From Phalacrocorax aristotelis (lineage: Eukaryota; Chordata; Aves; Suliformes; Phalacrocoracidae): a DNA stretch of 64,000 bases. The DNA lies in the NCBI RefSeq assembly GCF_949628215.1, contig NC_134297.1, positions 7,936,001-8,000,000 of the forward strand. Reading direction: 5' to 3'. Below are positions 24,901 through 27,900 of the stretch, in pieces; within the stretch, counting starts at the first letter, position 1, and each line of letters begins with the position of its first letter. A program made the position numbers and the translations under genes. Below the pieces are notes generated by a model, which saw only the letters and a list, made by a program, of their open reading frames with translations, made no database searches and had not been told where the DNA came from.

Positions 24901-27900
24901 ACCTTTTGTTTTGGGAATGTCACTAAAAACACCTCTGTTTAAATAAGACTTATTTTGAACATATTAATGCAAATGTAACTGTTTGGAATAGAAGGGAGAG
25001 ATCATTAAAATAAGCAAGTGCGTGGGGGTAAAACAGCTCTAGGCTACGAAGGACTAGATGTATGTGGTGCTTAAGCCTTTGTACGTGATAAGTTTGCGTA
25101 ACGTTTTGCAGTATTTTTTTCAGGACTTAAGCTAAGATCAACATACGGTGTTTTATGTAAAATTATTTGCCTTCTTAGAACCTGCCTCGATCTCCAAGGG
25201 ACTGCAAGATGAAACCGTGGCCGCTGGAGCAACGGTGCACTTCTGGTGTGACGTCCGCGGAAGCCCAGCACCGACCGTCACCTGGCTCCACAACGCAGCT
25301 GCCCTCCATCTCTCTCCACGACATCTGCTGACAGGAAACCGTCTGCGGATCCGCAGCGTCGCCCGAGAGGACTCTGGCTTGTACCAGTGCGTAGCGAACA
25401 ATGGGGTTGGATTTGCGCAGTCCACTGGGAGGCTTCGTGTCCAGCCAGGTAGGAGCATTTGCAGCTCTCAAGAGCTCAAATTAAGCATTTGTCCTTCAAG
25501 TTTTCTTCTGATTTTTCCCCCTAGATTACGTGTAGACTTGCTTCTGACCACTGTTTGTAGCAAATCTTACACAGAAAGTGCTTTCAGCTTTCAGCTGAAT
25601 TTTTAGAGATGTAGGTATTTCTGGCATAGCATGGTTACTTGATAACTGAAAACCTAGACTTAGAGCTGCAGTTAAATCAGCTTATGATTGAATTTGACAC
25701 AGTTTATTCTTAGATAGAATCAGGGTCCTGTTGTGCTGGTTGAACTGGAATTCTTAGCAGTATTGGACGACAAGTAATGATTCCTGTTCCGTATCCTCAA
25801 GTTTACACAATGATCATCAGATTTGGGGTTAGTGCACGCTTCCCTGGATCAAGTTAGCAGGTACCGATAGTCTTATTGATCACTTTTCAGTCTAAGATAC
25901 TTCCTAATACCTAGAGAACTTGATTTCTGCTCATGGAAGGATGTTGGCATGACCCTTGCTGTTCCTTTTTGCTCCCTGTCATGTGTAGTTGAAGCTTTTG
26001 ACCTTCTCTGTACCTTAAGATTGACGTGAGCAGCGCAGAGGCTGGCTGCGCAGATATTTTGTGACCTGCTTGGCGGTGGAGTGGCCTAGGTCAGCCTTGC
26101 CTGTGCTGCCTTCCTCACTGACAGTCAAGTCTTCATTATTTAGAAAAATTGAAGTGTGATTTGATTGTGCCAGCCCTCTAAGCGTGAGTCTCAGCTGATC
26201 TCTTCAGTCTGGAAAGGGAGTCTGGAGAGGCTGACCAGAGAAGAAATAACTGTTTAAATGGTTAAAAAGGAGCACGTGTGATTTTTTTTTTTTAAGTTCT
26301 ACTGACTCATTTTGGCATTATGCACCATATTCCTTAGCCAAATGTGTTCTTTGGGTGGCTTTTTTGCCCCCCACCCAGTCAAAGGCTTTAGGCCGGTTCT
26401 AGTCTCTTCATCAGCAAGTGTTACTGTGGTAGATGCTGGGGACTCTATGCTGTCTTGCAATGCCACCGGCCTGCACAGTCCCGGGACCCCTTGGTATGAC
26501 AGCAGAGGGCTTATTACTAACCGCCCTTCCCGGGTGCTTCATTCCAAACCACAGAAACCTCCTCAGGTGATGCAGGGTAGCACCGCTGCGGAGCCCGCCT
26601 GTCTCAAGTGGGCTAGAGCTCTGTGCACGTCGGGAATGTGACCCCTGAGTGTGCCAGGGTGTACATGTGTGAAACCGTCAACAAGCACAGCTCCCTGGTG
26701 TCGAGAGACTTCCTTAGAGTTGGTAAGCTTGAACCACAAAATTACAGTCGGCTCCCTGATTTAGGTGAGAAATGTGTCAAAATAAGAAATCAATGGCAGG
26801 TGGGTCGTGTCGGTATCATGGGGAAACGAAGCAGAGGAGTCTAAGCAGTGGACCTTAGGCAGAGGAGAAATGTCTGAATGTATTGCGTGGACTTAGCGTT
26901 CTTATAGGTGATAAAAACTATCCAAGGGTGGCGGGGTTCGTCTTATTTCTTAAAATTGCTACTAGGAAAAGACAGTTCTTATGCTAAAGGCAAGATGGGA
27001 AAGAGATATTTCCCTTCTTCACATTGGAACATTATGTGATGTTAATAACAGGCTTAAGCTCCCCCGCATTCCCTCCACAAGAACTAAGATACAGATTTTT
27101 AGTTATGTGAAGCAGCTTAGTTTCTCGGCTCTTTCAGCATCTTGCCTCAGTAAATTTAGCTGAACATCAGTGGGATTTAAGGTCAGTGGAATTTAATACG
27201 TGGGCCCATATTTAAAGTTCTTCGTTACCACCCATTAGAATTTAAAACTCCCATAAATAGTTTGAAAAGACGTGTAAAGGTTCACTGAGAGGAAGAAAGA
27301 AAGAAGAAACCTCAAGAAAGCGATCCCATCATGTAGTTTTATAAATAAGTTATTGTTGGACCTTGCTGAGTGGAAACACAAACGTAAATATCAGCCCAGA
27401 ATTCAGGCTGTGTCAGATAAAAAAAAATCCCACTGCTTTTGCCTCCAGAATTTTATGGCAGTAAGTTCAGTTTTAATGTTTTGTTTATTAACTTTTATCG
27501 GTTTCTAATATGTTGTACTAGCTGCTGATTATGGTGCAGAGGGTGGTTAAGGCATTTGGTTTTGATATAAAAGTCCTTAAGTAGTTTCTGGGAGCTGTTA
27601 GGGTTTTAGAACAGTTCCTACCCGTGCCAAAAGACATGCTCCAACATTTAGATGTTTTAATGAAGACTTTGTGCCAGGTAACACTTCCGAAGCACCTGAA
27701 TGACTTAGGCTGTGATTCCAGTGAATTTCTTTGGTAGTAGGATCAACTTAAGCAGCTCTCAGCCTCAGCAGCTTGTTCCTGTAATTTGCCTAGTGCGAGC
27801 ACACGGTAAAGAGAGCTTATTTGGCTGAAAAATACGTTTATTTTTTGTTCTTTCTGCTGGATCTATTCCACAACGTGATTCATTGCATGGTCTTAAAAGC

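Follow-up and report, generated by a model that had tools for sequence, protein, structure and literature searches.

The CDON gene lies on the plus strand of the window, a stretch of 64,000 nt of the Phalacrocorax aristotelis genome, and its exon 7, which encodes the fifth Ig domain (Ig5), has lost its reading frame in a gene whose other 18 coding exons are intact. Judged from its sequence, exon 7 is likely to be an exon-level pseudogene within a working gene, from which functional CDON would be made by frame-neutral skipping. In this bird, the CDON protein would probably carry four Ig domains rather than five. We regard this as a coherent exon loss in a retained gene, an event of a kind already known and in this case most likely real.

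The CDON gene and its intact exons

CDON was found exon by exon with tblastn, an approximate human CDON sequence serving as query against the 64-kb window. The coding region and the exons that encode the Ig domains and the adjacent linker are the following:

18899..52681, plus strand: CDON coding region, 19 coding exons, 18 of them intact plus exon 7 (tblastn, splice and phase model, match of FnIII-3 in the PDB)
21163..21435, plus strand: exon 2, Ig1, phase 1-1, intact (splice and phase model, Pfam)
23012..23158, plus strand: exon 3, first part of Ig2, phase 1-1, intact (splice and phase model, Pfam)
23464..23607, plus strand: exon 4, second part of Ig2, phase 1-1, intact (splice and phase model, Pfam)
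24038..24325, plus strand: exon 5, Ig3, phase 1-1, intact (splice and phase model, Pfam)
25179..25448, plus strand: exon 6, Ig4, phase 1-1, intact (splice and phase model, Pfam)
26379..26722, plus strand: exon 7, Ig5, 344 nt, decayed, with two lesions
30606..30898, plus strand: exon 8, linker and first part of FnIII-1, phase 1-0, intact (splice and phase model)

The product of the FnIII-2/3 region has CDON FnIII-3 (3d1m/3n1f) as its top match in the PDB with 216 bits, and BOC (3n1g) follows with 187.3 bits. FnIII-3 is thus nearer to CDON than to BOC, which identifies the gene as CDON. When exon 7 is left out, the splice and phase model joins the 18 remaining coding exons into 3420 nt encoding 1139 amino acids, with a single stop codon at the end. 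A previous reading made from the sequence alone (hereafter the sequence-only reading) had correctly named the gene, exon and domain and had seen that the remainder of the gene is intact; its statement that the 18 other coding exons are in frame agrees with the one 1139-codon ORF found here, which has no internal stops. Of the five Ig domains that a CDON orthologue should have, Ig1 to Ig4 score above the Pfam Ig_3 cut-off, and Ig5 is both frame-broken and below it.

Lesions and domain erosion in exon 7

Exon 7 begins after an acceptor of the form cccacccag/TC and ends at the donor GTTG/gtaagc. The flanking introns are of phase 1 on both sides, and an exon of 344 nt therefore breaks the frame, as the sequence-only reading had proposed for 26379-26722 together with good splice sites. 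It was also right that both halves match CDON Ig5 (50 of 112 aligned residues are identical to the human reference), and the two stop codons it listed are present. The lesions were placed by DNA-to-protein alignment in which frameshifts and stops were allowed, each of two references being run under three stop penalties. The references were approximate human and mouse CDON sequences, not database records; two versions of mouse Ig5 differ from each other, and the human and mouse Ig5 used both imply an exon of 354 nt. The exon can be divided as follows:

26381..26596, plus strand: first part of Ig5, in the frame continued from exon 6
26597..26598, plus strand: lesion 1, net loss of 10 nt with change of frame, relative to the 354-nt mammalian exon deduced from the reference proteins
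26599..26721, plus strand: second part of Ig5, in the other frame
26614..26616, plus strand: lesion 2, TAG in frame with the homologous sequence (frameshift-tolerant alignment)
26639..26641, plus strand: TGA at which the first frame stops if exon 7 is retained; the exon ends 81 nt further on

All six alignment runs gave a frameshift at 26597-26598 with a net change of -10 nt and then traversed the TAG at 26614, although the runs are not independent because one algorithm and the approximate references are common to all of them. The codons at 26599-26613 read LSQVG, so that the bird has LSQVG-stop-SS at the place of the LSQAGASS of the human reference. When the bases of the surrounding 50 nt were shuffled 100,000 times, 10 shuffles equalled the LSQVG match, in a test devised after the match had been seen. 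As this homology lies directly upstream of the shared SS, the TAG is inside homologous sequence and counts as a second lesion. Compared with the approximate mammalian references, exon 7 therefore contains at least two disabling lesions. The 10-nt deficit may have arisen in a single event, or from an older loss of 9 nt followed by the loss of one base. In the splice and phase model, inclusion of exon 7 makes translation stop at codon 487.

These results change the view of the break given by the sequence-only reading, which had put the frame switch close to 26,617 and the TAG just before the homologous part. The best alignment switches at 26597-26598, whereas 26617 lies just past the TAG, and the homology runs through that codon. 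A one-base deletion at 26617 was considered as a candidate and rejected, since the shift at 26597 followed by a stop was preferred in all six runs. The suggestion of a single missing base, possibly an assembly error, is likewise not supported because the net loss of 10 nt, the separate in-frame nonsense codon and the eroded Ig fold exceed what one missing base would leave.

The erosion of the Ig fold, a feature absent from the sequence-only reading, was measured with the Pfam Ig_3 profile (cut-off of 30 bits), using the human reference domains and with the lesion in the bird Ig5 masked by X. Ig5 falls from 60.6 bits in human to 25.4 bits in the bird. The other domains shift by about 10 bits or less (Ig1 from 45.9 to 40.6, Ig2 from 32.0 to 37.3, Ig3 from 52.6 to 42.5 and Ig4 from 58.7 to 58.5), and the sharp fall is confined to Ig5. 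Masking is not the cause of the low bird score, as human Ig5 under the identical X mask still reaches 61.3 bits; the mouse Ig5 reference reaches 67.1. Against structures in the PDB, exon 7 gives only weak Ig matches, the best being neurofascin (E 1.1e-4).

Ig hallmark columns are altered at 8 of 16 positions in Ig5 against 5 of 56 in Ig1 to Ig4 (Fisher p 0.0008), a value that is indicative only because the columns were chosen by eye, per domain, after the alignment had been seen. Among the hallmarks lost in Ig5 are two glycines, one in the D-x-G-x-Y-x-C motif and one in the F-G turn. Of the columns identical between the human and mouse references, the bird has changed 39 of 83 in Ig5, whereas the remaining Ig exons show changes at 89 of 305 (p 0.002), with two gapped columns omitted and the X columns taken as unchanged. 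Plain divergence was a weak test of decay and was set aside: in a human-mouse regression over the 18 other exons, exon 7 lies 0.12 above prediction (z 1.6), a value equalled by exon 3 (0.12) and surpassed by exon 5, the Ig3 exon, which is further off the line (0.14). Codon-position GC told nothing about whether the exon is in a coding state. Between the human and mouse references, too, no Ig exon evolves faster than that of Ig5, and since its divergence is unexceptional, it would be the kind rather than the amount of change that marks the decay.

No other copy of the exon was found. With whole-exon DNA as query, the 1.28-Gb genome (352 contigs) gave a single match, and the first 62 residues of the exon, searched as protein, gave one true match and one further hit with E 0.68 and 42% identity. 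The idea of a replacement or duplicate Ig5 exon was therefore discarded, the window showing only weak other matches (to the Ig3 exon and to a downstream minus-strand gene) and the genome none.

Skipping of exon 7 and competing explanations

Splice sites were scored with approximate matrices and compared with the 17 other acceptors and 17 other donors of CDON. The sites of exon 7, and a hypothetical intron within it, are:

26377..26378, plus strand: acceptor AG of exon 7, intact, score 5.6 (median of the 17 others 5.6)
26723..26724, plus strand: donor GT of exon 7, intact, score 3.6 (median of the 17 others 3.9)
26567..26616, plus strand: hypothetical cryptic intron of 50 nt, donor 3.2, acceptor -4.3

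The join of exon 6 to exon 8 (25448/30606) runs from phase 1 to phase 1 and is open. Since exon 7 stands between two phase-1 introns, this junction keeps the frame and CDON can still be made. The "splicing solution" that the sequence-only reading had listed among possible causes would thus hold in the form of frame-neutral skipping of the whole exon, but hardly as splicing within the exon, for which the acceptor scores -4.3. The splice sites of exon 7 are of ordinary strength, and the sequence alone does not compel the exon to be skipped; skipping would need the loss of exonic enhancers or other signals, and otherwise the exon may be partly included and feed NMD.

The history we propose has two steps. 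The constraint on the Ig5 fold would have weakened at the start, with changes of hallmark residues while most of the frame was still open. Exon 7 would then have lost its frame through the net 10-nt deletion and acquired the nonsense codon. With the exon skipped, a CDON of 1139 amino acids would be left, in which four Ig and three FnIII domains are followed by a transmembrane segment and a cytoplasmic tail. If 1 indel per 8 substitutions is assumed, the single stop and single indel of the 344-nt exon agree with a neutral divergence of about 0.01 to 0.06 substitutions per site. This is less than the hallmark changes would require under full neutrality; a relaxation of constraint followed later by loss of the frame would fit both.

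Because the splice sites of exon 7 are intact, use as a poison exon and recent loss of the whole gene stay as rivals. In the former, partial inclusion would send a share of CDON mRNA to NMD and so tune its level, the skipped form being the one that gives protein. A premature stop as far from the end of its exon as the TGA at 26639 is expected to trigger NMD under the usual rule, so inclusion of exon 7, which has further exons downstream, should lead to NMD, and a symmetric exon of phase 1-1 suits such a use. The intact sites may, however, merely reflect a recent loss, and we consider a poison exon rather unlikely. In the latter, exon 7 would be included, CDON would be null and the other exons would have had too little time to decay; the partial redundancy of Hedgehog co-receptors speaks for it. 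Against this, the other 3420 coding nt have neither a frame lesion nor a stop, the Ig profile score drops sharply in Ig5 and nowhere else, and if two lesions struck random places of the coding sequence, the chance of both hitting the 344 nt of exon 7 would be 0.008. We judge whole-gene loss to be quite unlikely.

The evidence comes from a single assembly, and an assembly error or a rare allele with a missing base, over a functional Ig5 exon, must be weighed as well. It would have to account for a net loss of 10 nt and a separate in-frame TAG in a region (26590-26616) where the longest single-base run is three, and for an Ig score that is low even with the lesion masked, all of which make it very unlikely. 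Splicing inside exon 7 is the most improbable of the explanations considered. Removal of the 50 nt at 26567-26616 would eliminate both lesions, keep the frame and shorten Ig5, giving an open ORF of 1237 codons, and the donor (CAG/gtgatg, 3.2) is comparable to real CDON donors. The intron would, however, be very short, its acceptor of -4.3 compares with at least 1.15 in the 17 other CDON acceptors, and both hallmark glycines of the retained 3' part are lost. Exon 7 moreover holds 51 frame-restoring internal GT-AG pairs of at least 30 nt (best acceptor among them -2.0), so that finding one is expected. Alternative sites that keep the frame open, four donors (best -2.0) and two acceptors (best -6.5), were too weak to be retained as candidates.

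Related genes and neighbouring loci

CDON is a Hedgehog and cell-adhesion co-receptor. PMC4102123 gives the ectodomain of Cdon five Ig domains and that of Boc four; five Ig domains are also given for Cdo in PMC4561423. As in mammalian CDON, with its five Ig and three FnIII domains, the Ig1 to Ig4, FnIII, transmembrane and tail regions of the bird gene match the human reference exon by exon. The bird differs in its Ig5 exon, where the frame is broken, a TAG interrupts the homologous frame and the score lies below the Ig_3 cut-off. Skipping of exon 7 would bring the ectodomain to the layout of BOC, with four Ig and three FnIII domains (PMC4102123), although by its sequence the bird gene is CDON, as FnIII-3 scores 216 against 187 bits. 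The natural four-Ig structure of BOC shows that a family member of this kind can in principle be viable. It is conceivable, but unlikely, that CDON converged on the four-Ig layout of BOC in this bird lineage and that the dead exon, with splice sites that still work, serves as a frame-breaking cassette whose inclusion sets the dose of CDON.

STK33 is described as a unitary pseudogene in neognath birds in PMC4509753. As in the present case, genome sequences revealed that birds of one lineage had lost coding sequence, but there the whole gene was lost, whereas here the loss concerns one exon of a retained CDON. For the night heron, PMC9531477 places CDON among the positively selected genes and has RELAX indicating intensified, not relaxed, selection; the CDON row of its table gives 0.2713 and 1.0674, which we take as background and branch dN/dS. 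If exon 7 is indeed an exon-level pseudogene, care would be needed in selection scans whose alignments are made to include an exon of this kind. The bird would also offer a natural experiment on the role of Ig5, one Ig domain having been lost with an exon whose removal keeps the frame; the case is of specialist interest in that CDON would be given the domain count of BOC. No report of loss of an avian CDON exon or of Ig5 was found among the openly licensed papers listed, which is weak evidence.

Wider searches used parts of the gene. With the product of exon 11 as query, one scan of public genome contigs returned 17 FnIII-like loci, all bacterial or archaeal, and one scan of public viral contigs returned 6 FnIII-like loci; no bird relatives were among the exon 11 product matches in these two collections. 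An exact 21-base pattern from exon 7 had no match in the viral contigs. In the window, Rfam gave no matches at the gathering threshold, and the CR1 tail motif was absent with up to two mismatches allowed; it is the feather keratin loci of the genome that mark it as a bird's.

Tail to tail with CDON, the minus strand of the window holds at 55800-60917 another gene with several Ig domains and an FnIII domain, which may be VSIG10L2. Its Pfam domains are:

56213-56644, minus strand: fn3
57495-57830, minus strand: C2-set_2
59085-59570, minus strand: Ig_3
60459-60917, minus strand: V-set, sub-threshold

Two minisatellite families occur within the span of this gene, at 58590-59097 and 59740-60359, with units of about 55 bp and of 20/40 bp. 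Elsewhere in the genome (G000), feather keratin genes form large arrays with many identical-scoring copies on contigs C156, C23 and C2; at least 150 feather keratin loci were scored among 258 candidates, with an approximate feather keratin sequence as query.
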